DNA of 41,573 nucleotides, from positions 1 to 41,573 of IMG/VR virus record IMGVR_UViG_3300027759_000167; one strand, 5' to 3'. Positions 1,583-31,182 of the stretch are shown here, piece after piece. The translations under genes and the position numbers were made by a program. Positions within the stretch are counted from its first letter, which is position 1; every line of letters starts with the position of its first letter. This DNA comes from a virus. The notes beneath the pieces are model-generated. The model searched no databases, had not been told where the DNA came from, and saw nothing but the letters and a program-made list of their open reading frames with translations.

Positions 1583-1598
1583 GGTTGCATGGTTATTA
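1583..1598 (-). promoter_or_regulatory. TAATAACC-type box (TAATAACCATGCAACC)
   Basis: One of the recurrent bipartite boxes, ten nucleotides before the ATG at 1572 and oriented with the gene. It sits in the short gap after the stop-side of the 1622-2374 gene, so it would let the small protein and polymerase be controlled separately. Its role as promoter or operator is inferred from recurrence only. Confidence 0.6.
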
Positions 1599-1621
1599 TC
1601 CCATGCAACCCATTTGTTGAC

Positions 1622-2374
1622 TCAGGGGAGTGTGTCAATGAGTTCTTTTTGGGCTTCGGTTACGAGACCCGCCGAACGAATCGTCGGTGTCCACCATGAC
1701 TTGTCAGCCTTAGTGGTGATGAGCGAACCTAAATCCCACTGCCCACCTTTAAGACCGCAAGCTGCGAGGTGTGTGCGAAGCGAAGTTGCGATTGGAACTG
1801 CGACACCGCTGTACGAGGTCGAAGCAAATGTTGCAACGGCTCGTGTGTAGCGAGTGCCGTCGGAAGCGATGTTGTAGAACAAGGATTCACTCTCTTCGCA
1901 AAGCCCCTCGATTGCCTGAATCAGGAACTCAACGGTCGCGATCTCCGAGAAGAAATTCGCCCCACGAGTCCAATGCACCTGACCGCCTACATCCCGCACC
2001 TGTGCGGCTGTGGAGAACATTCGGACTTGCGTGTTTTCACGGTCGTCGTAGGGAATATTTTCTTGATACTGCTTCATCATCTGCAACGCGATGACGCGAA
2101 GTGCGACTCCCTTTTTCTTGTCCTTCGGATCGATCCCGCTGATCTGATGTTGCTTGTCGAGAACCCAAGTTCCTGGGCTGAATTGATCCGCTAGAACGCC
2201 CGTCTTGTTGACGAGGTTGATGCGTGGGAGCTTCGTGTCGCTTGCGCTCCAATCTCCGATGAGCCCCTTGTCGGAGTAGTCATTGGTGCTGATATTTGCG
2301 AGCGCGTTTGCTTCCGGCTGCGTTGTTACGAGTTGTTTCGTGTTTTCGATTTCATCGAATGATATGGTTGCCAT
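1622..2374 (-). CDS. Conserved phage replication-cluster protein, possible ssDNA-binding role
   Basis: A 250-residue soluble protein without transmembrane segments. The segment LPRINLVNKTGVLADQFSPG (around 49-68) resembles a family of uncharacterised phage proteins encoded beside DNA polymerase and helicase genes. I see no enzymatic motif. A single-strand-binding role would fit between polymerase and helicase, because no other SSB gene is visible, but there is no diagnostic OB-fold signature or acidic C-terminal tail. Start: ATG at 2374, preceded by an A/C-rich leader with almost no G and, 34 nt further up, a TAATAACC box. There is no Shine-Dalgarno sequence. Confidence 0.7.
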   Translation of the reverse strand: MATISFDEIENTKQLVTTQPEANALANISTNDYSDKGLIGDWSASDTKLPRINLVNKTGVLADQFSPGTWVLDKQHQISGIDPKDKKKGVALRVIALQMMKQYQENIPYDDRENTQVRMFSTAAQVRDVGGQVHWTRGANFFSEIATVEFLIQAIEGLCEESESLFYNIASDGTRYTRAVATFASTSYSGVAVPIATSLRTHLAACGLKGGQWDLGSLITTKADKSWWTPTIRSAGLVTEAQKELIDTLP

Positions 2375-2408
2375 TTTTAGTATTTTAGTGGTTTAGTTTT
2401 GTTGTTCT

Positions 2409-2424
2409 GGTTATGGGGTTATTA
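2409..2424 (-). promoter_or_regulatory. TAATAACC-type box (TAATAACCCCATAACC)
   Basis: A bipartite box 34 nt before the ATG of the 1622-2374 gene, in the gap after the helicase-nuclease gene. Between box and ATG the leader is almost G-free and A/C-rich. No consistent -35 hexamer stands upstream. Confidence 0.6.
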
Positions 2425-2451
2425 CATGAGACGCGGAATTTATCAATCCGT

Positions 2452-4839
2452 TCAAACTATTTTTGACTTTTTCAAAAAAAGAATCGTCCCTTCTACTTTT
2501 GCCGCATTCGCGTCAATGAGAGCATCTCGCAAAGCTGTTTTAGACTTAGCCATTTGCCCTCGTTCTGCGGTGCGTGAAACAGCTTTTTCTAGTTCACCAA
2601 TTTTTAGTTTGGCGCAAGCTGCGAAAGCTTCTGGGGTGATTTTATTTTTGACCACTTCCCATGCGGCTTGAGCGTCGGTGATGTCAAACGCACTAGCGCG
2701 TTCGGCGAGTTCCCAACCTGGGATTTCCACCCCCGATAGTCGAAGCTCTAGGGCGCGGGCGTCTACCTTCTCAGCCCATCCCTTGAGGATCGGCGAGAGT
2801 CTTTTCGCTAAAGCCATTTTCTCTGGATCGGTGATGATCGCGGGATCAAACTGCGGTGGGAGAGCCAGCTCGTCAGGCTGATATTTACGAGCGATGGTGA
2901 GGGCGAGGGAGTTTAATTTATGGCACTCGGCGCGGTGAGCGCACCATGCACAATGACCGCCTGTTAAATAGGCCGCTGGGTCGTTACGCTTCGCGGCCTC
3001 AATGATCGCCGTTACTTGCGCTACGAGGCGATCCAAGTCTTCCGAGCGAGTCCAAGTCACAACGTCGATGATCCCTTGGAAGGGGAGAACAACGTGAACT
3101 GTGAGGGTTTCTACTTTTTCATGCGCGTGAAAAATGCCAATGGCGTAAGCCCAAAATTGAGGCGAGTCGGCTTCATATTTTCCCCATGCAAATTTGTAGT
3201 CCACCAACTCTGCACTGGTTCCGTGAACCATGACGTGATCGATATGCCCGAACTGATCGAGTACTACATAACGACGCTCGCGAATATCCTCCACAGGTGC
3301 TTGGCACTTGGATCGCAGAGAGGTGAGGTACTGCAAACACAGCCCTGCACTTTTGCGGAGAAACTCATCATCGGCAGGGATGACATCGAGGTTTTCTTTC
3401 TCGACGGCAAGGTGCCCTAGGGAGCCTCTGTCTGCTGCGGTGGTGTCGCGGGTTTGGTCATTACGAAAGCCTGGGCATTTCGCTTTTTCTTTCAGAGAGG
3501 ACGGCGAATGCTCGGCGTGTTCTCTCTCGTTGTTTTCTGCTAACGCGAGTGAGACTTCTCTCACGTCGCGCAGTTGTGTTGTTGTGTCTGACATAATTCC
3601 TTCGTTAAAAATTGTTGTATTCTCGCGCTTGTGGGCTGTGAGGTGCAGTGCTGCTTGCTCCACGGTCCCTGAGACAAATAACCGGAGAACCAGTGCGCGG
3701 TTTTTTCCACCAAATCGTCGGATGCGACCAATTGCTTGTTCCTCGGCTGTGCCGCTGAATTGCGGGCAGATTAGGGCAGTGCGTGGCGCGTTACCATGAA
3801 CGTCGTGAAGGTCGATGGACTGGCCTCCAGCGCCGATTTGGATGACAAGACATCGGAGGATATTCGCCTGGAATTTATCGCGGCTCTGCTGTCGCATATT
3901 CTGCGACACCCTCCCGTCTATTGTCTCGGAGATGTCGCCAAGAAGCTTTGAAGCGAGATCGATGGAAGCATGGAAGTTGAGGAACGTGACTGCACTGCCT
4001 CCGTCTTCCACGATCGCTGCTGCACGCTCTACGAGGTAGGGAATCTTTATGAGTTCGATCGCTTGGCGCTGCCGGAGGTTCTTCACAGCCGCTGGGTCTT
4101 CGATGTCCACCATCTCTGAGTAGAGCTTGTGAATTTCTTCACGATCGAGTGGTGATATAAAAATGGGTTCATCGGAAAGCGTGAGGTCTGGGAGCTGCTC
4201 GCTTAATACCGCGTCAGGCGTCCGGCTCCCGCGAGTGGTGAACACGGAATCGTGGAGGTGCTGCATTCGCAGTTTGTTTTCTTTTACCTTCGGGTCCCAT
4301 TCTAGCCCGCCCCATTGACCTCGTTCGGCCCCCATGTGAGCGGCCCAGTTCCAGAATTGACGTGAGTGAAATAGCCCTAGCTTCACTCCAATACTTTTCA
4401 TTCGGAGCGGGCTCTCTGCGGCAGTTGCCGAAAGCATGAGTGTGCGGTAGGGAGACGCTTCGAGCATCTTTCCATTGGCGCTTTTCATTCCAGCGCACAT
4501 ATGAACCTCATCGACTATGAGAAGGAGCGATTCGGGCACCCATTTAAAATTAGTACCCACTTTTTTTAACCACGCGGTGTTCCCCGTGCGGAGTTTTTCA
4601 GGGTTCTCGACAAACACAGGCTCAATACCAAACGACTCCAGAGTGGCAAGCCACTTGGCTTTGACGCTCTTCGGGCAGATCACTCCGACTGGCAGCGCGT
4701 AGCGCCGAGCGACTTCACAAGCGATGATGGTCTTTCCTCCGCCGCAGCCAGTCGCCTCTAAAGAGGCACCATTTGAATCGAGCGACTTGAGGTTTTTTTC
4801 CACCGCTTCTTGCTGAAACGGATAGAGAGTAAATTTCAT
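2452..4839 (-). CDS. Superfamily 2 helicase fused to a Cas4/RecB-like (DUF2800-type) nuclease
   Basis: A 795-residue two-domain protein. The helicase (residues 1 to about 405) has Walker A TGCGGGKT (30-37), a DEVH box (around 111), SAT (around 138) and motif VI QAIGRIRR (around 370-377). The second part (416-795) has the PD-(D/E)XK pattern HIDHV followed by ELVDYKF. It also has cysteines at C455 and in CAWCAHRAEC (around 630-639), the four-cysteine layout of iron-sulphur Cas4/AddB nucleases. In other phages these are usually two neighbouring genes. At the junction lies an in-frame ATG (3594) preceded by GAAGGA at SD distance, so the nuclease may also be made alone. It probably acts in phage replication or recombination. 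The start overlaps the upstream gene by 4 nt. Confidence 0.9.
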   Translation of the reverse strand: MKFTLYPFQQEAVEKNLKSLDSNGASLEATGCGGGKTIIACEVARRYALPVGVICPKSVKAKWLATLESFGIEPVFVENPEKLRTGNTAWLKKVGTNFKWVPESLLLIVDEVHMCAGMKSANGKMLEASPYRTLMLSATAAESPLRMKSIGVKLGLFHSRQFWNWAAHMGAERGQWGGLEWDPKVKENKLRMQHLHDSVFTTRGSRTPDAVLSEQLPDLTLSDEPIFISPLDREEIHKLYSEMVDIEDPAAVKNLRQRQAIELIKIPYLVERAAAIVEDGGSAVTFLNFHASIDLASKLLGDISETIDGRVSQNMRQQSRDKFQANILRCLVIQIGAGGQSIDLHDVHGNAPRTALICPQFSGTAEEQAIGRIRRFGGKNRALVLRLFVSGTVEQAALHLTAHKRENTTIFNEGIMSDTTTQLRDVREVSLALAENNEREHAEHSPSSLKEKAKCPGFRNDQTRDTTAADRGSLGHLAVEKENLDVIPADDEFLRKSAGLCLQYLTSLRSKCQAPVEDIRERRYVVLDQFGHIDHVMVHGTSAELVDYKFAWGKYEADSPQFWAYAIGIFHAHEKVETLTVHVVLPFQGIIDVVTWTRSEDLDRLVAQVTAIIEAAKRNDPAAYLTGGHCAWCAHRAECHKLNSLALTIARKYQPDELALPPQFDPAIITDPEKMALAKRLSPILKGWAEKVDARALELRLSGVEIPGWELAERASAFDITDAQAAWEVVKNKITPEAFAACAKLKIGELEKAVSRTAERGQMAKSKTALRDALIDANAAKVEGTILFLKKSKIV
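3592..3606 (-). promoter_or_regulatory. Internal ribosome-binding site and start codon for the nuclease half
   Basis: On the minus strand the sequence reads GAAGGAATTATG, with the ATG in frame with the fusion gene. The purine run is one of the best Shine-Dalgarno matches in this SD-poor genome. It falls exactly where the helicase domain ends and the nuclease begins (MSDTTTQ). It looks like the preserved start of a formerly separate gene, or a deliberate second start. Confidence 0.55.
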
Positions 4840-5117
4840 TCTTCCTCGAATTTAGAAATCTGAGAACTGCATTTGGCGTAGCCTGCAATGTCAACGTAGG
4901 TGTCGCGTGTGGGGGTGTAGCAAGCGCGAGCCATCTTGAGCACAATCATCATGTGAGCCACATCCAGAGCGGATAGCGGAGCCTCGGGCTCTTTCCTCGC
5001 TTTGAGGTACCAGTTCCATCCATCAGCGATTCTTTGGTGGTTGGAGGTCGCTTTGTCGTAATCGCGACGACGATCACCCGTCGTCACTTCTATTGCGGTT
5101 TCAAGTATGCTGTTCAT
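4836..5117 (-). CDS. DUF6378-like phage protein
   Basis: A 93-residue protein matching the pattern of the phage DUF6378 family: an N-terminal MNSILETAIEV, then GDRRRDYDKATSNHQRIA, then LSALDVAHMMIVLKMARA and a C-terminal DTYVDIAGYAKC. The family is all-alpha and of uncertain role. Its shape resembles MazG-like nucleotide-pool proteins, but the metal-binding residues are not evident. The gene overlaps its neighbours by 4 nt on each side (ATGA-type), so it belongs to one coupled unit with the nuclease upstream and the helicase downstream. Confidence 0.8.
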   Translation of the reverse strand: MNSILETAIEVTTGDRRRDYDKATSNHQRIADGWNWYLKARKEPEAPLSALDVAHMMIVLKMARACYTPTRDTYVDIAGYAKCSSQISKFEEE

Positions 5118-5455
5118 TTAACTAGAGAGGATTCTCGGAGGATGGAAATAAAGTCTTCAGCGCGTAAAACGACGATCCATCCGTGGTCGTTGCGCTTGTG
5201 GAAAACGGTGGGAATTTTTCCTTCTTTGGCGTCTCTCACCGCCTGTTCGAGCCACACATAGGGGTTCCCCGCCTCGACGCGTTTGCATTCGATATGCAGT
5301 GGGAGCGAGTCGCAAATGACATCGTCTCCAGTTAGTCCAAATCGCCCCTGGCTGAATTGGACTCCGCGCCTGGCAGGGAACCCCTCATCGGTCAAAAAAG
5401 AGGCAAGCTCCCGCTCGCCCCTAGCGCCTTTCGCTCGTGAATTTATTTTTCCCAT
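5114..5455 (-). CDS. PD-(D/E)XK Holliday-junction resolvase-like nuclease
   Basis: A 113-residue basic protein. It starts with SRAKGARGERELASFLTDEG, a helix carrying the conserved GERE glutamate. Then come GRFGLTGDDVICDSLP with the catalytic aspartate and LHIECKR with the E-x-K pair. This order (E...D...ExK) is that of archaeal-type Hjc resolvases and phage VRR-NUC-like nucleases. It probably resolves branched DNA during replication and recombination. The ATG at 5455 is only 2 nt after a TAATAACC box, which itself lies inside the end of the upstream gene. The gene overlaps the next one by 4 nt. Confidence 0.8.
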   Translation of the reverse strand: MGKINSRAKGARGERELASFLTDEGFPARRGVQFSQGRFGLTGDDVICDSLPLHIECKRVEAGNPYVWLEQAVRDAKEGKIPTVFHKRNDHGWIVVLRAEDFISILRESSLVK

Positions 5456-5760
5456 GCGGTGATGTGGTTATTACATTTCGGCTGACCCTTAGCCCACTTG
5501 CTGAGGTCAACCTCTTTGTATACGAACTTTTTTAAACCGAGCTTCCGGTAAGGGAGGTTCATGTTGTCGCGCCAGTAGGCGAGGTTGCCACGGGAGACTT
5601 TTCTCCCGAGCAACTCGCTCAACCGCTCTATTGCTGCCTCCGCCTCGTATGAGGCTTCGGCGTCTTTCCCTTTTGGGGTAGCCCCTTTTACTTCGAGGCT
5701 TATCTTACCGTCCCCCAGAGGGGTTGCGGTGAAGGAACTGCATTCTAGTGTGAGTGTCAT
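5443..5760 (-). CDS. Small HTH/excisionase-like protein
   Basis: A 105-residue protein. Its C-terminal half, KVSRGNLAYWRDNMNLPYRK followed by KKFVYKEVDLSKW, reads like a helix-turn-helix of the MerR/excisionase type. That type shows a helix, a 'W+' turn, a hairpin and an 'xDLxxW' ending. The N-terminal half looks beta-rich. It could be an excisionase or transcription regulator given the integrase upstream, or a replication accessory factor. The upstream 53 nt contain a C/G homopolymer stretch and a box half-site at 5809-5816. It overlaps the next gene by 13 nt. Confidence 0.6.
   Translation of the reverse strand: MTLTLECSSFTATPLGDGKISLEVKGATPKGKDAEASYEAEAAIERLSELLGRKVSRGNLAYWRDNMNLPYRKLGLKKFVYKEVDLSKWAKGQPKCNNHITAWEK
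5458..5473 (-). promoter_or_regulatory. TAATAACC-type box (TAATAACCACATCACC)
   Basis: It lies 2 nt before the ATG at 5455 and within the last codons of the 5443-5760 gene, where it encodes Asn-Asn-His. The box is therefore kept inside coding sequence. If it were a promoter, the transcript would be nearly leaderless. Confidence 0.55.
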
Positions 5761-6005: not shown

Positions 6006-6026
6006 ATATTTATTTTATTTGTACTG

Positions 6027-6069: not shown

Positions 6070-6369
6070 TTAGGTGTACGCTCGGCTTCCGAGCATAGCT
6101 ATCTTTTTGAGGCGTTCGAGTGTCGCTAAGTCCAAAGACTCAGAAACTCGTTCATCGGGGCTGTCTGATTGTTTTTCAATCAAATGTTTTGCGAGTGAGA
6201 TTGTTTCTCCACTCGGGTCTTCTTTCTTCAAGAAGTCCACTACCGCTTGCCTGATTAGCGCACTAATAGTCACCCCTTTTGCTCCTGCTAGTAGGGTGAT
6301 CGCTTTGTTATTTAACTTTGATTCAACGTATGACACGCGGAGCGTGCCCTCTCGTAATTTGTTCGGCAT
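6070..6369 (-). CDS. Ribbon-helix-helix-like regulator
   Basis: A 99-residue protein. TLRVSYVESKLNNKAITLLA and VTISALIRQAVVDFLKKE give the strand-helix-helix pattern of the RHH (CopG/Arc-like) fold, in which the ISALIRQAVVDFL helix would be the second helix. The rest is a charged, probably helical tail. It probably binds DNA as a dimer. It is the first gene downstream of the integrase on the minus strand and could regulate replication or integration genes. The ATG at 6369 is preceded by an A/C-rich leader and a box at 6421-6438. Confidence 0.6.
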   Translation of the reverse strand: MPNKLREGTLRVSYVESKLNNKAITLLAGAKGVTISALIRQAVVDFLKKEDPSGETISLAKHLIEKQSDSPDERVSESLDLATLERLKKIAMLGSRAYT

Positions 6370-6420: not shown

Positions 6421-6438
6421 GGTGAAGCTGGGTTATTA
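6421..6438 (-). promoter_or_regulatory. TAATAACC-type box with 6-nt spacer
   Basis: Reads TAATAACC-CAGCTT-CACC on the minus strand, 51 nt before the ATG at 6369. The spacer is two bases longer than in most copies. Confidence 0.45.
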
Positions 6439-6537: not shown

Positions 6538-7743
6538 TCACCAGTCTAAAGCGATCCCTTTTTTCTTGGCAAATTGACGCACCACATCGGGGGTGATGTT
6601 AAACCACTGTTCCGCTGCAACCGTGGATACAAGCGCCTTGTAGTGCTTTTTTAGCATATCGACTGAGTTCCCCGCTACCTCTGATGTCAACTCGGAGTTA
6701 CGGTGGAGTGCGATATGGTATGAGCAGAACGAGTGGCGCAGCGCGTTATCTTTTGTTTCAACCCCGCACAGCTTGAGCACGTCTTCGTCTGGCGGCGTTA
6801 TTTTTATTATCTTTGCGATCGGTCCTTTTTCAGGCGCGAATCTATCGAGCCAAACTTGGAGGTTGTCGGGGATGTTGAGAGCGCGCCCCGTTCCGGTCTT
6901 AGTTATCTCCGGCCCGAGCCGAATCATTCTTTCCGCGAACAGAATATTTTTTCTGGTGAGCTTCCGACTACTAGCCTCTGATCTTCTAGTCCCGCCAAAA
7001 GCCATCAGAGCGGTATAGGCTAAGAACCTAGGTTCAGTAGCCGCGAATATGGCGCACAGCTCGTCAGGCGTGTAGAACTCGGGGGTCACTTCTTTCTCCG
7101 AAGGAAAATTAGTCTCCATTTCAGTTTTGTCCTGAGAGATGAATCGCTGATTCTTTTTCGCCGCCCACCGCAGTAATGAGGAGAGGGTGCCGAAAAGATT
7201 TCGCTTACTCTTAGGGCTATATTTTGAGCGGCTCAAGAAGGTCAAATACTCTTCCGACGCGATAGTATCTATGAATCTTTTTCCGAATTCAGGCTCCCAA
7301 GCATTCCGGTGATTTCGGAGGGTCTGGTAGTAGCGCGAGGATAGCTGGCGTTCTTCGGCTTTCGCGTACCACAAATCAAACACTTCGGAAAAAGTATGCG
7401 GGTTCTGCGAGGTGCGCTCATGGAACTTCAAATAGAATTCAACCGCGACGTGCATCGGCGTTGATCCTAGACGCTCCTTGCACTCGTTGAAGTAGCTCAC
7501 GTCCTGCCCGCTCAGGGCCGTTACGCTTCCGTCACAGGTTGCAAGGTGCCTCACAATTCTATCCGCTTCTGCGAGTGCCGAAGCTTCCGAGTTGTAGCTC
7601 CTGCGAAAAGTTTTCTTTCCAACTTTCCATGCCAGTCGATGTGTTGTGTACGGGCCGCGATCTAGTTTGCTGATCCGCACAATGGCATGACCGCATTTTA
7701 ATATTGTTGTTTTGGCGTCAGGTTTTTCAGTCTGGATTTTCAT
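6538..7743 (-). CDS. int: Tyrosine recombinase / phage integrase
   Basis: A 401-residue site-specific recombinase that would insert the phage genome into the host chromosome. There is an N-terminal arm-binding-like part and then a SAM-like core-binding domain, FSEVFDLWYAKAEERQLSSR (around 117-136). The catalytic domain has the first arginine in GGTRRSEAS (around 250), the second box in NALRHSFCSYH (around 338-348, Asn in place of the usual His) and the nucleophile Tyr in KKHYKALV (around 368). The C-terminal WFNITP resembles integrases I associate with Verrucomicrobiota and Planctomycetota. It shows the phage is, or was, temperate. The start is the ATG at 7743, after a G-poor A/C-rich leader. 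Paired repeats lie just upstream. Confidence 0.93.
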   Translation of the reverse strand: MKIQTEKPDAKTTILKCGHAIVRISKLDRGPYTTHRLAWKVGKKTFRRSYNSEASALAEADRIVRHLATCDGSVTALSGQDVSYFNECKERLGSTPMHVAVEFYLKFHERTSQNPHTFSEVFDLWYAKAEERQLSSRYYQTLRNHRNAWEPEFGKRFIDTIASEEYLTFLSRSKYSPKSKRNLFGTLSSLLRWAAKKNQRFISQDKTEMETNFPSEKEVTPEFYTPDELCAIFAATEPRFLAYTALMAFGGTRRSEASSRKLTRKNILFAERMIRLGPEITKTGTGRALNIPDNLQVWLDRFAPEKGPIAKIIKITPPDEDVLKLCGVETKDNALRHSFCSYHIALHRNSELTSEVAGNSVDMLKKHYKALVSTVAAEQWFNITPDVVRQFAKKKGIALDW

Positions 7744-7770
7744 TTTTCAGTTCGTTTTGGTTTGTGATTC

Positions 7771-7789
7771 TGTCCCAAAAGTTGGGACA
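7771..7789. repeat. Perfect inverted repeat, putative operator 1
   Basis: TGTCCCAA-AAG-TTGGGACA, with 8-bp perfect arms and a 3-nt spacer, 28 nt upstream of the integrase ATG. The size and symmetry suit a dimeric repressor site. The half-site recurs at 7875-7901. Confidence 0.65.
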
Positions 7790-7874: not shown

Positions 7875-7901
7875 TTTTGTCCCAGAAAATTTTGGACAAA
7901 A
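7875..7901. repeat. Inverted repeat, putative operator 2
   Basis: TTTTGTCC and GGACAAAA (8-bp perfect arms) are separated by 11 nt. The half-site TTTTGTCCCA equals the reverse of the right arm of the 7771-7789 repeat, so both sites could bind the same regulator. Confidence 0.55.
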
Positions 7902-7921
7902 AGGGGCAGCGCATACGGGAT

Positions 7922-7950
7922 TTGAAATCGCTTACGGTTTTGTATAAATA
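7922..7950 (+). promoter_or_regulatory. Possible sigma70-like promoter for terminase
   Basis: TTGAAA (7922-7927), 17-nt spacer, TAAATA (7945-7950); alternatively TATAAA at 7943 with a 15-nt spacer. It is 20-25 nt downstream of operator 2 and would read into the terminase gene. Single sequence, no experimental support. Confidence 0.35.
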
Positions 7951-9799: not shown

Positions 9800-9821
9800 G
9801 GTGTATTAACCTTAAAGGTTA
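9799..9821 (+). promoter_or_regulatory. GGGTGTATTAACCT element with TAACCTT-A-AAGGTTA palindrome
   Basis: An exact second copy of the 7802-7815 element, immediately before the fibre cluster. It runs into a 7-bp-arm palindrome (9807-9821) that ends 2 nt before the ATG at 9824. A related sequence, GGTGTATTATCTGC followed by TAAGGTTA, precedes the gene at 31183. Confidence 0.5.
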
Positions 9822-9823
9822 TT

Positions 9824-11527
9824 ATGAATCTCAGCACTATAACAAAAGTCACTACCGCAAAACTCGCTGATGGCGCGGTCTCCTTGGCGAAGTTAGACTA
9901 CGACGTAATCGAAAAGTTTGATGACAAACAGAACGTGGTTACGGGGGCTATTACTACCTGTATAACAACCAATTTAACTGCTGGAGCAGTCGTCATAACT
10001 GACGCGGCAGGCAAACTAGCGGTTTCTACCGGAGTCCAAGCGGCTGAACTAGCGTTCCTCGGTGGGGCGACTGCAAACATCCAAGCTCAACTTGACCGCA
10101 TAGGCTTTATGCCGATGACCGACGTGCTGGTGGTTGCTGGAGGGGGCGCTGGGGGTGGGGCGTACTATGCTGGCGGGGGTGGAGGTGGAGGATTTATTCA
10201 AGAGTCCGTGCAGTTTATAGCAAATCAAAAATATGTGGTTTTTGTTGGCGCAGGCGGGAGTTCGTCAACTACAACTAGCGAAGTCGGTTCATCGGGATTT
10301 AAAGGCGAACCTTCGCTTATACAAGGGCCTGGGGTCAGGGTAGTGGCTGAAGGCGGCGGCGGCGGCGGCTCAGACGACGGCTTCCAGGCACGGGGCAAAG
10401 ATGGGGGCTCAGGCGGCGGCGCTTCGGGGTATGCTAACTTTGACGGAGCCGGGGGTGACGAAACTTTTGGGCAGGGAAAGCGCGGTGGTAGAGGGGGCTG
10501 GTACGCAGGGGGAGGTGGTGGTGGCGCAGCAGCCATCGGCACAAATGGGATCGGCAACACTGATGGAGGGCCTGGAGGGGCTGGAGGACAGTTTGCCGCA
10601 GCAGAAACCACGGGGGTTGGCACTTTTTCGGGGACCACTCCCGTTATAACAAAACTTTACTTTTCAGGCGGAGGCGGAGGAGGTTCGGGGCAGTCTCCCA
10701 CCTCCACCACTAAAGTATCGGCGGGGGGGGCAGGCGGAGGAGGCACTGGGGGTAACGAAGACTTTTTAGCGCCTACTCCAGGAGCGGCTAATACCGGCGG
10801 AGGTGGGGGGGGGATGAGTAATCCTTCAACAACAGATACAACAAACGCATCTACCGCAGGAGGGTCTGGAATAGTTTGCATCAACTACCCCAAGGGATTT
10901 ATAGCCTCGGCTATTTCCGGAGGCGTTGCACAGAAGGATAAAAACGGCAAGAATGCGGCTGTTTTGTTTAAAAGCGCGGGGTTTTTTACTTGGATTGCCG
11001 AGCCTCCTACTGTAAATACTGCGAGCGTTGCTGGGACTGTAGGAGTCGCCTTAAATTACCAAGTTGTTTATACTGGTGAAGTCGATACTTTTGCGTCTTC
11101 CGTTGTAGTGAATGGGGTGATTTTCAGCACGGACGTAGGTACCTTTATTGGCATTCCGACAAAAGTGGGCACCTTCGCCACTATCGTCACTGCGAACTTC
11201 CTTGATGGCTCAACCAACGTCGGCACCGGAAAGGGAACTATTACTTTTACAATAGCTAAAGGGACTCAGACAATTACCCAAAATGATAACGCCGTATCTA
11301 TGCAAGTCGGAGACCCTGCATACTCGTTAGGAGCGGCTACATCATCGGCGCTTCCTCTTACTTATACGTCCAATAATTTAACTGTTGCTAAAGTGAGCAC
11401 TGCTGGGCTGGTTACTATTTTGGCTGCGGGGACTGCTATAATAACTATCTCTCAGGCTGGAAATACCGATTGGAAACCCGCCACCAGCCTCACTCACACC
11501 GTAACCGTAACTAATCTTAACACTTAA
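9824..11527 (+). CDS. Glycine-rich tail fibre / adhesin with Ig-like C-terminus
   Basis: A 567-residue probable receptor-binding protein. Residues 1-100 have the TTAKLADGAVSLAKL segment common in phage fibres. Residues about 105-365 are dominated by long glycine runs, as in polyglycine-sandwich adhesins (T-even gp38 type) and the glycine-rich domain family. From about 385 there are two Ig-like beta-sandwich domains: one in the TAGTVGVALNYQV style (here SVAGTVGVALNYQV) and a bacterial Ig2-type ending in ISQAGNTDWKPATSL. It probably decorates the tail and contacts the host surface. The strand opposite is proline-rich and open, a shadow of the glycine codons. A box-type element lies just before the start. 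Confidence 0.85.
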   Translation: MNLSTITKVTTAKLADGAVSLAKLDYDVIEKFDDKQNVVTGAITTCITTNLTAGAVVITDAAGKLAVSTGVQAAELAFLGGATANIQAQLDRIGFMPMTDVLVVAGGGAGGGAYYAGGGGGGGFIQESVQFIANQKYVVFVGAGGSSSTTTSEVGSSGFKGEPSLIQGPGVRVVAEGGGGGGSDDGFQARGKDGGSGGGASGYANFDGAGGDETFGQGKRGGRGGWYAGGGGGGAAAIGTNGIGNTDGGPGGAGGQFAAAETTGVGTFSGTTPVITKLYFSGGGGGGSGQSPTSTTKVSAGGAGGGGTGGNEDFLAPTPGAANTGGGGGGMSNPSTTDTTNASTAGGSGIVCINYPKGFIASAISGGVAQKDKNGKNAAVLFKSAGFFTWIAEPPTVNTASVAGTVGVALNYQVVYTGEVDTFASSVVVNGVIFSTDVGTFIGIPTKVGTFATIVTANFLDGSTNVGTGKGTITFTIAKGTQTITQNDNAVSMQVGDPAYSLGAATSSALPLTYTSNNLTVAKVSTAGLVTILAAGTAIITISQAGNTDWKPATSLTHTVTVTNLNT

Positions 11528-18858: not shown

Positions 18859-19518
18859 ATGCTTTTAATCTTTCCCTTTAACCAAAACCATAAACCCCTT
18901 TACGAGCATATCGTCGCTCTTGGCGGGGGCGGGGGGCACGATTTGTTGCTTGTGGGGAGTAAATCCCAGGCGCGTGCTATGGAGGATGCTGTCGATGAGT
19001 TCACAAAAGTCTTTGCCCATGTGGATGTTTTCGCAGTGGACGGAGAGCCTAGCAGAAACAGGCTTTTTTCCGAGACTGTGAAATGGCTTGATCTTGTGGC
19101 AAACGAGGCTCCTTTTTATTGGTTCGAGGATAGTGTGCCAGTAAAAGCTTCTTGGCTTGACGATATTTATACGGAGTACCAAATCAAACGGACTCCTTAC
19201 CTCGGGGCTGTGGAGCCTTCTATCGAAGTTGACCCAGCTACGGAAGAGAAGTTTGAGGAAAATCCTCGCTTGATAGCTTCTAGCGTCTACCCCGCAGACT
19301 TATACGAACGATCTATTCTTATTCGGCAGCTCTGCTTCCCTAATGCCCCACTTTGGAATGTTCAAATGCGGTTTGAGATTCGCCGCGAAGCAACTGTATC
19401 GGCACACATACAGATGGTGGGTGAGCCGATCGTTGCGGCGACTAGCGTCATAACTGGAACTAATGACCCCACAATTTTAGAACCTCGAAAGAAGGAAAAA
19501 GACCATGCACGAAAGTAG
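18859..19518 (+). CDS. Glycosyltransferase-like protein (GT-A-type pattern)
   Basis: A 219-residue protein. An N-terminal LLIFPFNQNHKPLYEHIVAL strand-helix, GHDLLLVGSKSQA, and then FYWFEDSVPVKASWLDDI (around 87-104) resemble phage proteins related to GT-A glycosyltransferases. In those, a W/F-E-x-D stretch holds the nucleotide-sugar metal site. PYLGAVEP and IASSVYPADLYER follow as in that family. It could modify virion or host glycans, but the key DxD is not clean, so the activity is uncertain. It has its own box upstream and overlaps the portal gene by 14 nt. Confidence 0.55.
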   Translation: MLLIFPFNQNHKPLYEHIVALGGGGGHDLLLVGSKSQARAMEDAVDEFTKVFAHVDVFAVDGEPSRNRLFSETVKWLDLVANEAPFYWFEDSVPVKASWLDDIYTEYQIKRTPYLGAVEPSIEVDPATEEKFEENPRLIASSVYPADLYERSILIRQLCFPNAPLWNVQMRFEIRREATVSAHIQMVGEPIVAATSVITGTNDPTILEPRKKEKDHARK

Positions 19519-21829
19519 CTCTCTTGAAATAAAGGGGTTAGACCCTATAACGGGCGCAGCCCCTAAGTGCCGCGTCGATAATGTGGACGCGGGCAGGGCG
19601 ATTTACATTGCAACAAAAAAAGCCGATGAGGGTAGCAGTCGCAATCGCGCCTTGATCGACAGTATGTTCAATGGCGCTCCTCCGTTCAATGCCAACGATC
19701 TGATTGAGATGGGGCAGGGCGACCGAACGAACCTTGATTTCGGCGATGCAGCAGCTCTGAAGGAGCAGGCTCTTGCGGGGTACTACGATTTAACAAGTTC
19801 TGTGGACAAGCTGGCGCGTGTGCAGACAAGCTACGGAGCCCCTGAGCAACAAGCCGAGTGGAATGAAATCATCTCTGAGGAGTTCCATCGCACGCTAAGG
19901 GAGTGGAAGGAGTTTGAGTTTAACCATCAGCGGCTCTGTGACTACTTTGTGAGCCACGGCGTCGGGGTAACCTTCTTCGAGGATGAGGTTGACTGGCGCT
20001 GGCGCGTTGCTGGACTCTCGGAGTTCCGCATCCCTAGGGCGACTAGAGCCAGCGAGCATGAGATCGAAGTTGCGATGGCTGACCGCGAATACCGCGCCGA
20101 CGAGCTTTACGCTTTTATCAAAGACGCCGAGATCGCTGCGGAACTCGGGTGGGACGTTAAAACCACGCGATCGGCTATCCAGCGCGCCTGCCAAGAAGAC
20201 CAATCCATGAGTCTTGGAGATTGGGAAAAGCTGGAGGTGGAGCTGAAAAACAACGATATTCTGTATGGTCACGCCAAGAGCAAAGTGGTGAAGGTCGTCC
20301 ACATGTGGGTGCGAGAATTTTCAGGTAAAGTCTCGCACTTAATGTTCCTTCAAGACCCTTTGAATAGTTTAGCGAAAGACGAGAAATTCCTATTCAAGCG
20401 GGAAAATCGTTTCGAGTCTCCAACGAATTGCTTTGTGACTTTCTGCTACGGAGTGGGAAATGGAACTTACCACGGCATACGCGGACTCGGGTTTAAAATC
20501 TACCCACACATTCAAGTGTTGAACCGCTTGCGGTGTGGAATGGTGGATGGGGCTCTCTTGTCTTCTTCCCTCATTGTTCAGCCTAGCGACAGTTCCTCTA
20601 GGGCGATTGACGATCTGACTTTGACTTACTACGGGCCTTACGCGCTCTTTCCACCGGGTCTAAAGATTGTTGAAAAAGCAGTGCCGAATTTGCAACAAAA
20701 CATCATCCCTGTCATATCCGACATGGCGATGCAGATGCAGAATAACGCAGGGGCTTACCAGACTCGCGCTGCCGCCCCTGATGGACAGTCGCGAACTGCC
20801 TATGAAGTACGAAGCCAGTTGCAAAAAGAGGCAACCCTGTCTTCTGCCTCGATCAACCTTTTCTACCATCCGTGGAAACGCCTGTTGGCTGAAGTGTATC
20901 ATAGATTATGCCGCGCCGACTATAGCGCCCTAGAGCCTGGCGGTCGTGAGGCGATTGACTTCCGCAAACGCTGCATTAAACGCGGCGTCCCGCTGGAGGC
21001 TATTATCAAAGTCAAACAAGTCGATCCTGTCCGCGCTATTGGCTACGGAAGCCCTCAGATGCGAACTGCGGCGATAGACGAAACAATGAGCATATTTGGC
21101 TCGCTCGATGAACAAGGTCGCATCAATCTTTTGCGCGATCGCATTGCCTGTCGTTTTGGTCAGGAAGTCGTGGATCGCTACCTGCCGCCCCCCAATACAA
21201 ATCTACGTCCGCCGCTCGATTACAAAATTGCGGTTTTGGAAAATGCAACCATGTCGAGCGGAAGCCCGATTCCTGTCAGCCCAGGCGAAAATCATTTTAT
21301 TCACGCGGGCACTCATTTGCAAGCCCTCGATCAACTCGATCAAGCCATTGCGTCAGGTCAGGCGAACCCGCAAAACGCGCTTATGGCGATGCAGAACTTC
21401 TTGCCACATACTCAAGAGCACGTTGCCGCTCTAGGGCAGGACTTGGTACGCAAAGACCAAGTTGCGCTGATGACTCAGCGCCTCCAACAACTCGGGGCAA
21501 GCTCCAAGCGGTTGCAGGACGAACTGCAAGCTCAGGCTGAGAATGAGCAGAAAGGCGCAGAAGCCGAAGCACAGAGGCAGCAGACCGCTATGGAAGCTGA
21601 TTACCGAGCGATGCAGGAGAAGATCGCCAAGATGGAGCAACTCAGCCCTGAAGCCCAGCAAAAGCTTCTTGAGAAGCGAGCCGATATGCAGATGAAGCTT
21701 GAGAAGCACCAAATTGATATGCAGATGAAAGCCGCCGCGACCCAGCAAAAAATGATTCTTGATGACGCGGTAGCTGCATCGAAAGTTAGATCAACTTCTT
21801 CAGTTGCAAAAGTCCCGCCGCAGGTGTAA
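19505..21829 (+). CDS. Portal protein (head-tail connector)
   Basis: A 774-residue podovirus-type portal. The N-terminal ATKKADEGSSRNRALIDSMF then NGAPPFNANDLIEMGQGDRT (around 37-76) is typical of this portal group. The middle holds the clip/stem region. The end (around 650-750) is a long Gln/Ala/Glu-rich coiled coil that may line the channel or bind internal core proteins. It would form the dodecamer at the capsid vertex where the terminase docks. An AAGGA lies about 10 nt before the ATG. It overlaps the preceding gene by 14 nt and its stop codon is part of a TAATAACC box. Confidence 0.88.
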   Translation: MHESSSLEIKGLDPITGAAPKCRVDNVDAGRAIYIATKKADEGSSRNRALIDSMFNGAPPFNANDLIEMGQGDRTNLDFGDAAALKEQALAGYYDLTSSVDKLARVQTSYGAPEQQAEWNEIISEEFHRTLREWKEFEFNHQRLCDYFVSHGVGVTFFEDEVDWRWRVAGLSEFRIPRATRASEHEIEVAMADREYRADELYAFIKDAEIAAELGWDVKTTRSAIQRACQEDQSMSLGDWEKLEVELKNNDILYGHAKSKVVKVVHMWVREFSGKVSHLMFLQDPLNSLAKDEKFLFKRENRFESPTNCFVTFCYGVGNGTYHGIRGLGFKIYPHIQVLNRLRCGMVDGALLSSSLIVQPSDSSSRAIDDLTLTYYGPYALFPPGLKIVEKAVPNLQQNIIPVISDMAMQMQNNAGAYQTRAAAPDGQSRTAYEVRSQLQKEATLSSASINLFYHPWKRLLAEVYHRLCRADYSALEPGGREAIDFRKRCIKRGVPLEAIIKVKQVDPVRAIGYGSPQMRTAAIDETMSIFGSLDEQGRINLLRDRIACRFGQEVVDRYLPPPNTNLRPPLDYKIAVLENATMSSGSPIPVSPGENHFIHAGTHLQALDQLDQAIASGQANPQNALMAMQNFLPHTQEHVAALGQDLVRKDQVALMTQRLQQLGASSKRLQDELQAQAENEQKGAEAEAQRQQTAMEADYRAMQEKIAKMEQLSPEAQQKLLEKRADMQMKLEKHQIDMQMKAAATQQKMILDDAVAASKVRSTSSVAKVPPQV

Positions 21830-21842
21830 TAACCATCTAACC
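21827..21842 (+). promoter_or_regulatory. TAATAACC-type box (TAATAACCATCTAACC)
   Basis: It overlaps the portal stop and ends 3 nt before the ATG at 21846. TTGCAA lies 17 nt upstream (21804-21809), so a sigma70-like reading is possible here, but the other copies lack a matching -35. Confidence 0.6.
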
Positions 21843-21845: not shown

Positions 21846-22064
21846 ATGAGAGACTACAAACGCGAATACGAAACGTATCATGCCAACCCCGAACAGAAGA
21901 AGCGACGAGCGGGTCGCAATGCAGCTCGCCGCAAATTGACTGCGGAGGGGAGAGTAAAAAAAGGCGACGGGATGGATGTAGATCACCGCAACCATAATAC
22001 GCTCGATAATAGCCCCGCCAATTTACGCGTACTGAGAGCTAAAGTAAATCGATCCCTGCAATGA
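21846..22064 (+). CDS. Small HNH-like phage protein
   Basis: A 72-residue very basic protein. EYETYHANPEQKKRRAGRNA then ARRKL leads into GDGMDVDHRNHNTLDNSPAN then LRVL. The DVDHxNxxxLDNxxxNLR pattern is the short HNH-like family found next to phage portal genes. It may be a nuclease or a DNA-binding accessory of packaging. I took the ATG at 21846, just after the box. It overlaps the next gene by 4 nt (ATGA). Confidence 0.75.
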   Translation: MRDYKREYETYHANPEQKKRRAGRNAARRKLTAEGRVKKGDGMDVDHRNHNTLDNSPANLRVLRAKVNRSLQ

Positions 22065-23776: not shown

Positions 23777-23817
23777 AAATAGCACGTTGACGGTTACGCG
23801 GTTATTATGCTATTTTC
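23775..23817 (+). repeat. 10-bp inverted repeat before the capsid gene
   Basis: GAAAATAGCA and TGCTATTTTC (perfect arms, 23775-23784 and 23808-23817) are separated by 23 nt that contain TTGACG (23787-23792). A second TTGACG lies at 23853. The pair could be an operator around a promoter, or a weak attenuator between scaffold and capsid genes. Confidence 0.5.
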
Positions 23818-23900
23818 ATTTCGACGCTGCTTGCAGGCGGTTAATCTGCATGTTGACGCTGGTTACGGCGGTAAAAGTAACAAAACTTAGTATCGCGGTT

Positions 23901-23916
23901 TAATAACCACGCAACC
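23901..23916 (+). promoter_or_regulatory. TAATAACC-type box (TAATAACCACGCAACC) before the capsid gene
   Basis: It ends 31 nt before the capsid ATG. It is followed by an A/C-rich leader whose end, AACATAATAAT, resembles that of the fibre gene at 13321. The capsid gene is likely the most expressed gene, so this copy is the best one for testing function. Confidence 0.6.
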
Positions 23917-23947
23917 CAACATTCAGATAACCAACTAACATAATAAT

Positions 23948-25255
23948 ATGGCAGCATTACAAAACATTGAACAACTCTTCGTAGAGTGGGGCGGTCTTAT
24001 CCGCAACAACGTCGCGAAGAACATCATAACCTCCGACTTCTATCTCAAATATCTTCCAAAAGATAAATGGGTTGACGGTCAGGGCAACCAAATCAGCTAC
24101 CCCATCTACGAGCGTTCGCTCTCTAGCTCGGCAGTCAGCACCCCTGGCGGCGTGACTTTTGAGAACTGGAATTCTTCTGGTGGAGACGGCGACAATGCCA
24201 CCAAGACTGGAACCTACACAGCGAGCCCCACAAACTCCAACCTCGTTGGCGCTAATGGCGGATCGCTCTCCCGTAGTGGAACGCTTGGCGGCGGTAGCAA
24301 CATCGTAGGTCAGAAGATTGATTCTTTCGGCGTAACGATCCGCACCATGTCGCTCAAAAAAGCGGCTTTGAACAGCCCTGACATCTGCTTGGACGATCTT
24401 CAGTTCGCATGGCAGGTCGAAGACCAAGTCAAGAACGTCGTTCGCGTCCTCTCTGAGAACACGAAGTATGTCTGGACGAACACCTACCAAGACGAATATA
24501 TTACCGCTTGCGGTTACAAATCTGTCGCCAAGGCAAGCTTCGACCCCTTGACAACCTCCTTCGCGGCTACTCCAGCTACGAGCAAGCTCACTTGGGGAAT
24601 CCTCGAAGCGATCTACGAGCAACTCGGCTATCAAGGTGGCTCGATCAACCCGTTCAAACGTGTTGACGAGATGACTCCGATCTACGCTGTTGTCGGTGAA
24701 CGCTACACGTTCTCCGACCTCAAGCGCCAAGACGCCAATGTTCGTGACGACTATCGTTACGCTTACATGGGCAGTGGAGAAAGCAACCCCATGATGGCTG
24801 CTCCTGGGATGAACACCATCACCCGTGGATTCCAATTCTTCACGGTGGAGCTTCCTCCTCGCTACACATTTGACGCCACTACTGGCACTTGGAATCGCGT
24901 ATACCCTTACGCACCAACCGCAACGAGCCGTGGAATGAAATGGGAAATCAGCGATGCCTATAAACTCGCTCCTTACACAGACACCGTCGTCTACCACCAA
25001 GATGTGATGAAAGTTCTCACACCTTCTGCTCGCACCAGCAAGGGTGGCGGAATGACCTACAACCCATCCTACTCATGGGCTGGTGAATTCGTCTGGCGCA
25101 ACATCCCCGACCGCGACTCCAACATTGATGGATCGACAGGCTTCTTCCGTGCGCTTTACGCCTTCGGAACGAAGGTTGAGCGTCCTGACCTAGGGTTCGT
25201 GGTACGCCACCTCCGCTGTGTCACCCGCGCTAACGATCTGGCTGCTTGTTCCTAA
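23948..25255 (+). CDS. Major capsid protein
   Basis: A 435-residue protein with N-terminal MAALQNIEQLFVEWGGLIRN, then FYLKYLPKDKWVDGQGNQIS, a Gly/Ser/Thr-rich loop (around 55-110) and mixed alpha/beta sequence afterwards. It is called capsid from its position right after the scaffold, its strong G-poor leader, its size and its even codon usage. I do not recognise a textbook HK97 motif. The virion shell would be about 435 residues per subunit with no obvious cleaved prodomain. A strong hairpin follows the stop. Confidence 0.75.
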   Translation: MAALQNIEQLFVEWGGLIRNNVAKNIITSDFYLKYLPKDKWVDGQGNQISYPIYERSLSSSAVSTPGGVTFENWNSSGGDGDNATKTGTYTASPTNSNLVGANGGSLSRSGTLGGGSNIVGQKIDSFGVTIRTMSLKKAALNSPDICLDDLQFAWQVEDQVKNVVRVLSENTKYVWTNTYQDEYITACGYKSVAKASFDPLTTSFAATPATSKLTWGILEAIYEQLGYQGGSINPFKRVDEMTPIYAVVGERYTFSDLKRQDANVRDDYRYAYMGSGESNPMMAAPGMNTITRGFQFFTVELPPRYTFDATTGTWNRVYPYAPTATSRGMKWEISDAYKLAPYTDTVVYHQDVMKVLTPSARTSKGGGMTYNPSYSWAGEFVWRNIPDRDSNIDGSTGFFRALYAFGTKVERPDLGFVVRHLRCVTRANDLAACS

Positions 25256-27974: not shown

Positions 27975-27979
27975 GTTTT

Positions 27980-28588: not shown

Positions 28589-29216
28589 TTTTACAGATGC
28601 GTGTGACGCTCTAGCAAGCTGCGTCGATAACGGGGTGGCGAGTACCGATACGCGGGTGGCTAAAAGAGTCAATGAAGCCCAACGCAGGCTGATTGACCAG
28701 TATAATTTCCTTGTGAGGAGAGAGGAATTACAAAGCACCCATCTTTTCTACACGCCGAACCCCACTAACCTTATCTTCGATAATATCGATGCGACAAAGG
28801 TGATGATCTTATCACTCTGGCGTGAAGAGAATAATGAGCTGGAGATGGCGGCGGTGCTAGAGAAGAAAGCGATAGATATGGTCGAGCGCGACATCTTGCA
28901 AGCCGTGGAGACAGATAGGCGAGATGTTTATCAGGGTCTCGAAGCGGGATCATACAATACTCTAGGCGGGCTCGTCGGTAGACTCGGGTTAGAGGTAATC
29001 GCCAGGTACCGCATAACCCCAGATAGAATGCGTTCGTATGTCCGCGCTAGTTACCGCATGGCAGTAGACCATCATAACTACATAGTTCGTAGAGAGTCGC
29101 TGCACCTCCCAGCGATTACCGATAATACCCTTTCTTTTGACTCTGCGGAGTTAAAAATATCTCCAGAAATTATCCGAGAATTAGTAATCAACCAAGTAAC
29201 CCAAGATAACACCTAA
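28578..29216 (+). CDS. Connector-like protein A (module copies 1 and 2)
   Basis: A 212-residue helical protein. Residues about 23-53 (RVAKRVNEAQRRLIDQYNFL then VRREEL) are a part-copy, and residues about 90-205 are a full copy of a module. In full copies the module has MVERDILQAVETDRR, then a GGLVGRLGLEVIARYR stretch, then SYRMAVDHHNYIVRRE and a beta end. The RVNEAQRRLI style is that of podovirus head-tail adaptor proteins. The same module recurs in the next two genes. It overlaps the preceding gene. Confidence 0.6.
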   Translation: MATSFTDACDALASCVDNGVASTDTRVAKRVNEAQRRLIDQYNFLVRREELQSTHLFYTPNPTNLIFDNIDATKVMILSLWREENNELEMAAVLEKKAIDMVERDILQAVETDRRDVYQGLEAGSYNTLGGLVGRLGLEVIARYRITPDRMRSYVRASYRMAVDHHNYIVRRESLHLPAITDNTLSFDSAELKISPEIIRELVINQVTQDNT

Positions 29217-29217
29217 T

Positions 29218-30096
29218 ATGGCACAACAAGACGCAAACGACTCGCTGCGAAATGCAGCAGACCCAACAAAAATATCCGCATTTGACCTCATCGAGCGCAA
29301 CATCATGCGCGACGTCGAGGGAGATCGCAAAACGCAGTTCCAAGCCCTCGAATCGTCCGGCAACCAAAACACTTTCGGGGGGTTGGTAGGTCGAATTGGG
29401 TTGGAAACCTTTGACAAATACGGAAGTACTGTGTCGCGGGTGGCGAGCTATGTAAACCAAGCTCACCAAATGTCAATCGACCACCACAACTTTCTCGTCC
29501 GCCGCGAGGAGTTAAACGAAACGGGTGCAACGGAAATGACGTTTGTTGCTAAAGACATTGCCAATACCACGGATAAAGCATTCACGTTTGACGCTAGGGT
29601 TCCTTCTGAAGTGATCCGAATGCTTTCGGTTGCCCTTATGATGATGGACGCGGGGGTGCCAATATCGGAATCCGTAGGCATGAAGCAGCAGGCAGTAGCC
29701 CTCATTGAGAGAAATGTAGTCACTGCGGTAGAGAAAGCTCGTCGGGGGGCATTTCAAACCCTAGCTACTGCGTCTAACCAAAATACATTTGGCGGACTGG
29801 CGGGTCGCATTGGGCTTGAGACCGTAGCCCGCTACCGCCTCTCTGCCGATCGTATCAAATCCTACATCAATCAAGCTTACCAATCAGCGATAGACCATCA
29901 CAACTTTATCGCTCGCCGCGAGACGTTCGACAGGGCTGCATTGACCTTTACTCCACTCACACTAAATAGCGATATATTCTCAAACGTCATCCCCGCCGAA
30001 GTCGTTCGGCTGATCGTGCTGTCCTACATCCAGAACGATCAGGCTGCAACTCCAACGGCAGGCCCCCTAACCGCATTGGCAGAAAGACAATCGTAG
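29218..30096 (+). CDS. Connector-like protein B (module copies 3 and 4)
   Basis: A 292-residue protein containing two complete modules. Copy 3 (around 20-140) has DLIERNIMRDVEGDRK, NTFGGLVGRIGLE and AHQMSIDHHNFLVRREEL. Copy 4 (around 160-285) has ALIERNVVTAVEKARR, NTFGGLAGRIGLE and AYQSAIDHHNFIARRE. The two halves are clearly alike, which shows an internal tandem duplication. It starts 1 nt after protein A and ends 1 nt before protein C, so the three are made together and may form one ring or stacked rings. Confidence 0.65.
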   Translation: MAQQDANDSLRNAADPTKISAFDLIERNIMRDVEGDRKTQFQALESSGNQNTFGGLVGRIGLETFDKYGSTVSRVASYVNQAHQMSIDHHNFLVRREELNETGATEMTFVAKDIANTTDKAFTFDARVPSEVIRMLSVALMMMDAGVPISESVGMKQQAVALIERNVVTAVEKARRGAFQTLATASNQNTFGGLAGRIGLETVARYRLSADRIKSYINQAYQSAIDHHNFIARRETFDRAALTFTPLTLNSDIFSNVIPAEVVRLIVLSYIQNDQAATPTAGPLTALAERQS

Positions 30097-30097
30097 C

Positions 30098-31156
30098 ATG
30101 GAGTCACAACAACCGACAGATAGGTACCGTTCAGAAGCTTTTGATCTTTTAGAGCGCAACATTGCTGCTGCTGTCGAAAAGGATCGCAGTAGCGTGACGG
30201 GAGATGTCGGCAGGCTTCATAACGAGCTTGTTTTGGGATTAACTGTCCCGACTGCTCGTATGACTAAGCTTTTAAACCAAGCGGTATCTGACATAATGTC
30301 GCACCAAAGCTTCTTGCAGAGGGGCGATGATGATTTAATGGCCCCACCAGCGGCAACTTTTGAACAGAAGAAGGCACTCGTTGAGAGCTACCTAGCTAAT
30401 TCTTCGGGGTCTACGGATCAGGCGAATGTTTTGAAGAAAGGCGCCCTAGAGTTTGTAGAACGCGACTATAAAGCCCAAGTAGAGTCAACTCGCCGTGATG
30501 ATAGGCTCGCTCTTTCTCTGACGGCACCAACTTCATTCGGATACTACTGGGGGAGAATCGGGCTAGGGTTTGACGGCGTGTTGGGTTTTTCCAATAACCT
30601 CATCAAGCAAGCCGTTACTTCGGCGGAGGAATCTCTTATGAACGCGGGGAAGTGGGTCGGAACCGTGGCAGAGTACACGCTCACGTTGAGCGCGAGCGGG
30701 GAAGTGTTTTTGCCGCGTGAGATTGATACGGTTCTCTTTACCTCGTTTGACGGGGACCCGCGCCCTGTGCATGATAGGTATGCGGGATATATGCGAGGGG
30801 GTAGTGGGGTTAAGTCGTTGGATAATACAGGCAGAAGCGGATTCTCTGACTTGGGAAATGCGGTTGACCCTGCGGACGGAAAAACAAAACGAAAATACTT
30901 TGTATCCGTTCCCACTGAGGGAGAGCAGACTGAGGTTCGCTACCTAGCAAAACGGAGGTTTGTTCCGCACGTTTTAGATACAGAGAAAATGTATTTAGAC
31001 AACTATAGTGCGGTGGAACAGGCTGCGCTGGCGATCTTAACGCAGGGCAAGATGGGGGTTTTTGAGGCCGCTAAAAAACTCCTCGCGGACCAAGTCGCTC
31101 AAGATTTTTTCAAGTCTCAGATTTGGAGCCCTAGGAAGATAAATTCATTGCGGTAG
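30098..31156 (+). CDS. Connector-like protein C (module copies 5 and 6, adaptor C-terminus)
   Basis: A 352-residue protein. The module recurs in more diverged form at about 14-85 (FDLLERNIAAAVEKDR ... LLNQAVSDIMSHQSFLQR) and 108-185 (LEFVERDYKAQVESTRR ... GYYWGRIGLGFDGVLGFS). The rest, SGEVFLPREIDTVLFTSFDG and AKRRFVPHVLDTEKMYLDNY, is a conserved podovirus connector/tail pattern (gp11-like by role). This gene is probably the ancestral connector from which the modules of A and B were copied; that order is inferred. Confidence 0.6.
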   Translation: MESQQPTDRYRSEAFDLLERNIAAAVEKDRSSVTGDVGRLHNELVLGLTVPTARMTKLLNQAVSDIMSHQSFLQRGDDDLMAPPAATFEQKKALVESYLANSSGSTDQANVLKKGALEFVERDYKAQVESTRRDDRLALSLTAPTSFGYYWGRIGLGFDGVLGFSNNLIKQAVTSAEESLMNAGKWVGTVAEYTLTLSASGEVFLPREIDTVLFTSFDGDPRPVHDRYAGYMRGGSGVKSLDNTGRSGFSDLGNAVDPADGKTKRKYFVSVPTEGEQTEVRYLAKRRFVPHVLDTEKMYLDNYSAVEQAALAILTQGKMGVFEAAKKLLADQVAQDFFKSQIWSPRKINSLR

Positions 31157-31182
31157 GTGTATTATCTGCTAAGGTTAATAAC
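31156..31182 (+). promoter_or_regulatory. GTGTATTA-type element
   Basis: GTGTATTATCTGCTAAGG then TTAATAAC stands between the connector stop and the ATG at 31183. It aligns with the element at 9801 (GTGTATTAACCTTAAAGG then TTATT). It is a diverged member of the box family. Confidence 0.35.

Follow-up and report, generated by a model that had tools for sequence, protein, structure and literature searches.

Gene control was analysed in IMG/VR virus record IMGVR_UViG_3300027759_000167, a linear record of 41,573 bases (the window), where a short bipartite box recurs before genes on both strands. The strict form of the box is TAATAACCNNNNMACC, i.e. TAATAACC-N4-(A/C)ACC. The box is a phage-specific control site, and the observation is near certain to be real and biologically meaningful. 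Sequence conservation, placement and co-occurrence suggest that it may be the site of a phage-encoded repressor, an operator or stoperator as in the mycobacteriophages L5 and Bxb1. This reading is held tentatively, and a repressor-bound 'stop' site is considered more likely than a promoter. The box offers a first entry into gene regulation in a large family of uncultured temperate phages that probably infect Verrucomicrobiota.

The strict pattern occurs eight times in the window, against 0.00 expected from 100 dinucleotide shuffles, and the reversed pattern is absent. An earlier note on this DNA had listed six of these copies, with exact coordinates and strands, and had correctly judged them to be beyond chance. 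The two copies that it overlooked close the following list.

1583..1598, minus strand: strict box TAATAACC-ATGC-AACC, 10 nucleotides (nt) before the ATG of the gene at 1315-1572 (minus); 23.4 bits; kept in the close relative G006
2409..2424, minus strand: strict box TAATAACC-CCAT-AACC, 34 nt before the ATG of the gene at 1622-2374 (minus); 25.2 bits; kept in G006, variant in G001
5458..5473, minus strand: strict box TAATAACC-ACAT-CACC, 2 nt before the ATG of the RusA-like gene at 5114-5455 (minus); 20.5 bits
18835..18850, plus strand: strict box, 8 nt before the ATG of the gene at 18859-19518 (plus)
21827..21842, plus strand: strict box, starting on the TAA stop of the gene at 19505-21829 and 3 nt before the ATG of the HNH gene at 21846-22064
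23901..23916, plus strand: strict box, 31 nt before the ATG of the major capsid gene
23792..23807, minus strand: strict box, intergenic and antisense to the capsid operon, in the spacer/-10 region of a sigma70-like promoter
38900..38915, plus strand: strict box, within the giant open reading frame starting at 37083

The box had been described as always pointing the same way as its gene and always preceding a gene start. The former fails for one of the eight strict copies (23792-23807) and the latter for two (23792-23807 and 38900-38915). The proposed distance of 2-51 nt between the end of the box and the ATG narrows to 2-34 nt for the six strict sites, the value of 51 nt belonging to the variant at 6421. 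Sites 21827 and 5809 do overlap the stop of the preceding gene, both starting on the stop codon, and site 5458, in a detail previously unmentioned, falls within the gene upstream (5443-5760), at its 3' end. Orthologues of the 18859-19518 gene retain the box in L009, L014, L018, L040, G027, G015 and G018. Two of the six variant sites that had been proposed stand out.

6421..6438, minus strand: variant box (TAATAACC, 6-nt gap, CACC), 51 nt before the ATG of a ribbon-helix-helix (RHH) gene; 13.9 bits
7807..7823, plus strand: variant box TATTAACC, about 215 nt before the terminase gene; 13.3 bits; a box is found at the same place in relatives

The position of the latter is backed by one relative, in which TAATAACC lies about 213 nt before the terminase start. 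The remaining variants are near background, namely 5809 (9.3 bits), 9804 (10.3 bits; a palindrome), 31159 (9.2 bits on the other strand and 5.3 on the gene strand) and 6027 (6.1 bits). A palindrome-like element made of box half-sites in inverted order was also observed, its end adjoining the ATG of tail-fibre-like genes.

9802-9828 and 31158-31185 in the window, 16063 and 42714 in G006, 34674 in G001: palindrome-like element GGTGTAWTA-N-AAGGTTAWTA

The relatives of the window were collected with its capsid protein, which retrieved 55 related loci in IMG/VR.

23948..25255, plus strand: major capsid protein gene, assigned by its position after the scaffold and by conservation; no PHROG match; query for relatives

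Many of these relatives are 67-83 kb long. Four of them (G015, G018, G022 and G023) have terminal repeats of 123-127 nt and are therefore apparently complete. The first 25 kb of the window are without a close phage DNA match, its capsid is without a match among GenBank phages, and its terminase is matched by other phages only distantly. A position matrix, used at thresholds of 11 to 12 bits with the reversed sequence as control, detected about 10-33 boxes per genome in 14 related genomes (0-4 in the reversed controls) and none above the reversed control in five distant relatives. In most box-bearing genomes, TAATAACC ranks as the top or near-top upstream octamer. The earlier note had made the motif search in related phages the test of its claim; there the box lies upstream of genes throughout and its placement is not random. 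The box is also a sharp marker for recognising this phage family, and at least 30 of 53 IMG/VR stretches retrieved by the box 17-mer alone have a tenfold or greater excess of TAATAACC, like this family.

The boxes, of which a genome has roughly 12-31, are oriented with transcription, mostly 12-45 nt before starts, and are packed into intergenic gaps. A called start lies 12-75 nt downstream in 59% of 270 sites (4% at random), and 3% of these sites are antisense within genes (44% at random). The alignment of 83 non-redundant sites yields (G/A)TAATAACC-n-C-(A/G)-(C/T)-AACC and contains no upstream -35, which bears out the earlier statement that a consistent one is missing. The box is asymmetric, covers about 16 base pairs (bp) and consists of a single 8-bp unit, nnRYAACC, repeated directly, with TAATAACC followed by nCRYAACC. 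Within the boxed genomes, direct repeats of RYAACC with a period of exactly 8 bp number 42, whereas no other spacing exceeds about 10; the count is partly circular because the box itself is the repeat. The first half drifts between sub-clades (TcATAACC in G022/G023, TAATAACt in G009/G012 and TAATAAC. in G013-G020). Both halves have changed together, the trailing C being lost jointly in G009/G012 and in G013-G020, where the second half lacks its CC and the first half its final C.

The capsid gene is preceded by a promoter that the box overlaps in a number of phages.

23787..23816, plus strand: sigma70-like promoter TTGACG-N18-TATTTT of the capsid gene; most relatives have equivalents about 150-230 nt upstream

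A strong terminator lies just before this promoter in G001, G004, G013 and G020. The box is antisense in the promoter spacer/-10 in the window, L009, L013, L014, L015 and L018, and it is kept there despite a different register to the -35 in window/L018 and in L009/L013/L014. In L020, L023, L029, L036, L043 and L057, which represent another sub-clade, the box lies in sense at the -35. Judged from this conservation, the boxes kept within the capsid sigma70-type promoter appear to behave like an operator. The occurrence of a box or a sigma70 promoter after terminators could be followed at too few terminators, the capsid gene having both. The leader between the capsid promoter and the ATG is conserved over about 150-200 nt (23787-23948 in the window; also L020, L023 and L048), for example TCTCACGTTTACGGGTAGCGGCAATCATCCGGTAGAAATC, and is possibly a structured RNA.

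The genes of the window include an integrase, a terminase, a helicase, RusA and a DNA polymerase, with the gene of a giant protein at the right end. Three features near the integrase concern the possible regulator and the host.

6070..6369, minus strand: RHH protein, a candidate box-binding protein; RHH_1 match of 19.0 bits, just under the Pfam cut-off
6538..7743, minus strand: tyrosine integrase
7905..7926, minus strand: core of the phage attachment site (attP), TTCAAATCCCGTATGCGCTGCC, between integrase and terminase; the tRNA-Glu(CTC) gene of a Chthoniobacter metagenome-assembled genome (MAG; L212) has an identical 3' end

The RHH protein is encoded next to the integrase and has a near-invariant strand, R-V/L-S-Y-V/I-E. 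Both the RHH protein and the integrase are found in 10 of 10 long boxed genomes and in none of five unboxed ones. The box-bearing RHH relatives in IMG/VR all belong to the same phage family and therefore provide no independent test of the link between RHH protein and box. Antisense boxes near the RHH gene were considered as auto-regulatory sites and rejected, as they are C-terminal codons of the integrase. The identity of the attP core with the 3' end of tRNA-Glu(CTC) points, as an indirect assignment, to Verrucomicrobiota hosts. A GTDB scan with the degenerate core returned 54 stretches, about half of them from Verrucomicrobiota and mostly Chthoniobacterales, and ARAGORN identified tRNA-Glu(CTC) in 20 of the 22 stretches tested. 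As for a host promoter or regulatory motif, the box has no match in 18 candidate-host genomes. No prophage was found by a GTDB scan with the capsid alignment; a single 6.7-kb GTDB contig, without TAATAACC, lies in a genome of the candidate host's order. In two Verrucomicrobiota MAGs (L218 and L226), fragments of the tRNA-Glu 3' end lie away from any tRNA gene and resemble remnants of attachment sites left by integrated elements. The integrase-terminase gap also contains the inverted repeats TGTCCCAA-n-TTGGGACA (7770-7786 and 7880-7900 in the window); they are kept in G001, G004 and G006 and are perhaps integrase arm or repressor sites.

Several known systems offer parallels to the box. Regulators of the RHH type that bind tandem repeats include MetJ, on 8-bp met boxes, and omega, on 7-bp heptads. 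Their operators share with the box the short tandem direct repeats at a fixed period, and an RHH protein is encoded beside the integrase in every long boxed phage. On the other hand, the box has only two units, the second of them degenerate, there are tens of boxes per genome compared with few MetJ or omega operators, and the RHH protein is a candidate binder. The stoperators of the L5 type are asymmetric, lie along the direction of transcription and occupy promoters and short intergenic gaps (PMC9283540, PMC6550527). Bxb1, analysed in the same way as the box phages, has 28 sites of the 13-mer type, mostly intergenic and 21-36 nt upstream of starts, a few of them lying just within genes. The sites of Cluster A mycobacteriophages (bound by the L5 gp71, Bxb1 and TipsytheTRex repressors) thus resemble the box in their number of 20-30 short asymmetric, transcription-oriented copies per temperate genome, in their location in short intergenic gaps and promoters, in the drift of their sequence between sub-clades and in the accompanying integrase, the box phages having an integrase and an attP core. 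They differ in being 13-mers, whereas the box is a tandem direct repeat of 16 bp, has an unrelated sequence and occurs in phages of another host phylum. No homologue of a repressor with a helix-turn-helix (HTH) or stoperator domain was recognised in the box phages, no direct search with the L5-type repressor having been made.

The operator reading is favoured because the number, orientation and placement of the boxes match those of real stoperators, and because the capsid gene has its own sigma70-type promoter with an overlapping box. The RYAACC repeats at exactly 8 bp and the joint change of the halves, the presence of an integrase and an RHH protein with the box, the failure to find a phage RNA polymerase or sigma factor, and the absence of the box from candidate hosts are further reasons. 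In the prophage, the regulator would occupy the boxes, possibly as RHH dimers on adjacent octamers. The bound regulator would block initiation at the capsid promoter and would stop or impede the polymerase reading through gene blocks, keeping the lytic genes silent. Upon loss of the regulator, the host RNA polymerase would read the operons. The fuller proposal is more doubtful: genome-wide, orientation-dependent silencing of the stoperator kind may have arisen independently in Verrucomicrobiota phages, with an RHH protein on tandem octamers instead of the two-domain repressor of actinophages. If the box is a stoperator, phages would have converged on silencing by blocked elongation, hitherto known mainly from actinophages.

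Several observations weigh against a repressor site. More than half of the boxed genes start too near the box to fit a Shine-Dalgarno sequence, for which Bxb1 stoperators leave space, and in many cases box and start codon are directly adjacent. The overlap of box and capsid promoter is absent in L016, L026, L030, L048 and L050, and few sigma70-type promoters were found for the other gene blocks. The candidate regulator is itself open to doubt: its RHH_1 match falls just below the cut-off, the model of the protein is of low confidence, and its own gene has no clear box in several genomes. The co-occurrence of RHH protein, integrase and box is confounded by descent, because all the genomes belong to one clade.

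A phage-specific promoter without a -35 is another possible reading, though a less probable one. RTAATAACC would be the -12 to -5 element and the following CRYA the initiator. Transcription would mostly begin some 12 nt downstream of the first T, many mRNAs would be leaderless or have leaders of 4-15 nt, and the box would be read by the host RNA polymerase with an unrecognised phage factor. The codirectional placement has a sharp edge, with no start at 0-10 nt from the box, 35 at 10-20 and 54 at 20-30, and many boxes abut the ATG (6 at exactly 12 nt and 20 at 16-17). A Shine-Dalgarno sequence is found solely in genes that start 27 nt or more from the box (34 of 77, against 0 of 80 with a nearer box). 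The Y at position 11 and the A at position 12 are near-invariant, even where the ATG overwrites the rest of the second half, and the scarcity of other promoters also favours this reading. However, the lower distance limit is 12 nt in sub-clades in which the motif ends at 12-13 and 16 nt in those in which it runs to 15. The limit moves with the motif end and therefore shows only that the motif stays clear of the gene; the edge need not mark a start site, and the deduction of a leaderless promoter from a hard 12-nt floor is weakened. The AACC repeat at +8 and the joint change of the halves are unexpected for a -10 plus initiator, and no promoter role suggests itself for the copy that lies antisense in the sigma70 promoter of the capsid gene. 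The layout is comparable to that of T4 late promoters (gp55/gp33/gp45), with TATAAATA at -13 to -6 (PMC1524935). The literature, searched for the octamer and for leaderless motifs in phages, yielded no pertinent report. These share the short A+T-rich 8-bp core, the lack of a -35 and the location immediately upstream of genes, but the box has a conserved AACC repeat after the core, also precedes replication genes and overlaps another promoter in antisense. A polymerase or sigma gene, which the earlier note had suggested seeking, was not found in the relatives: no T7-type polymerase appeared, Sigma70_r2 had no match, and the Sigma70_r4_2 HTH matches were all sub-threshold, so no convincing sigma factor and none resembling gp55 turned up, gp55 itself not having been searched. 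As a promoter, the box would imply an unknown specificity factor in this family, along with a large number of messages that are nearly leaderless. Two of the earlier alternatives, 'repressor or activator site' and 'phage-specific promoter', are still viable, and the evidence tilts to the former.

The box might also act in RNA, as an intercistronic mRNA element marking stop/start junctions (a signal for translation start or re-initiation, or a processing site), but this is improbable. The preceding gene stops at the first TAA of the box in 46 of 142 sites, with the stop at position 3-5 in eight more, and the strict strand bias and the nearby AUG are as such an element would require. The AUG distance, however, differs between orthologues (24, 25, 27 and 16-17 nt before one gene; 26-47 nt before the capsid gene), many sites are distant from any stop, and in some genes a Shine-Dalgarno sequence accompanies the box. 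Certain copies overlap a promoter from the opposite strand, others are located some 200 nt upstream of the terminase and capsid genes, and no Rfam match was obtained. A promoter of a T7/T3-like single-subunit RNA polymerase, as the earlier note had considered, is very improbable. The box resembles such promoters in its many codirectional copies per phage genome, the gene set is podovirus-like, and TAATAACC is superficially like the start of the T3 promoter, as the note had pointed out. The conserved positions differ, and no polymerase gene was found in the box phages: PF00940 had no match in 30 relatives, including the four apparently complete ones, whereas the same search detects the T7 polymerase at 1e-110 as positive control. 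The giant protein, of 3.4-4 thousand amino acids (kaa), is without RNA polymerase motifs. The T7-like promoter was rejected as largely refuted, since it would require a polymerase too diverged for the profile.

Other elements and proteins were noted in these phages. The giant protein of the boxed phages (L102:91-12057 in G001; 37083-41573 in the window) combines an ADP-ribosyltransferase-like stretch with a virion-protein C-terminus. The palindrome CCCTAGGG is strongly over-represented in the window and in G006 (24 strand-counts in G006). G022 has palindromic GAATCAGA/TCTGATTC repeats, with 16 strand-counts, several of them upstream of genes. A second recurrent pre-gene element has at least 10 copies, mostly 13-55 nt before starts of the early region, and sometimes directly follows the box.

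G015 (L187-L188) about 37041-43053, minus strand; G027 6894; G013; G020: element TGCTGGCCTCTTAAT-n-n-TGAAC

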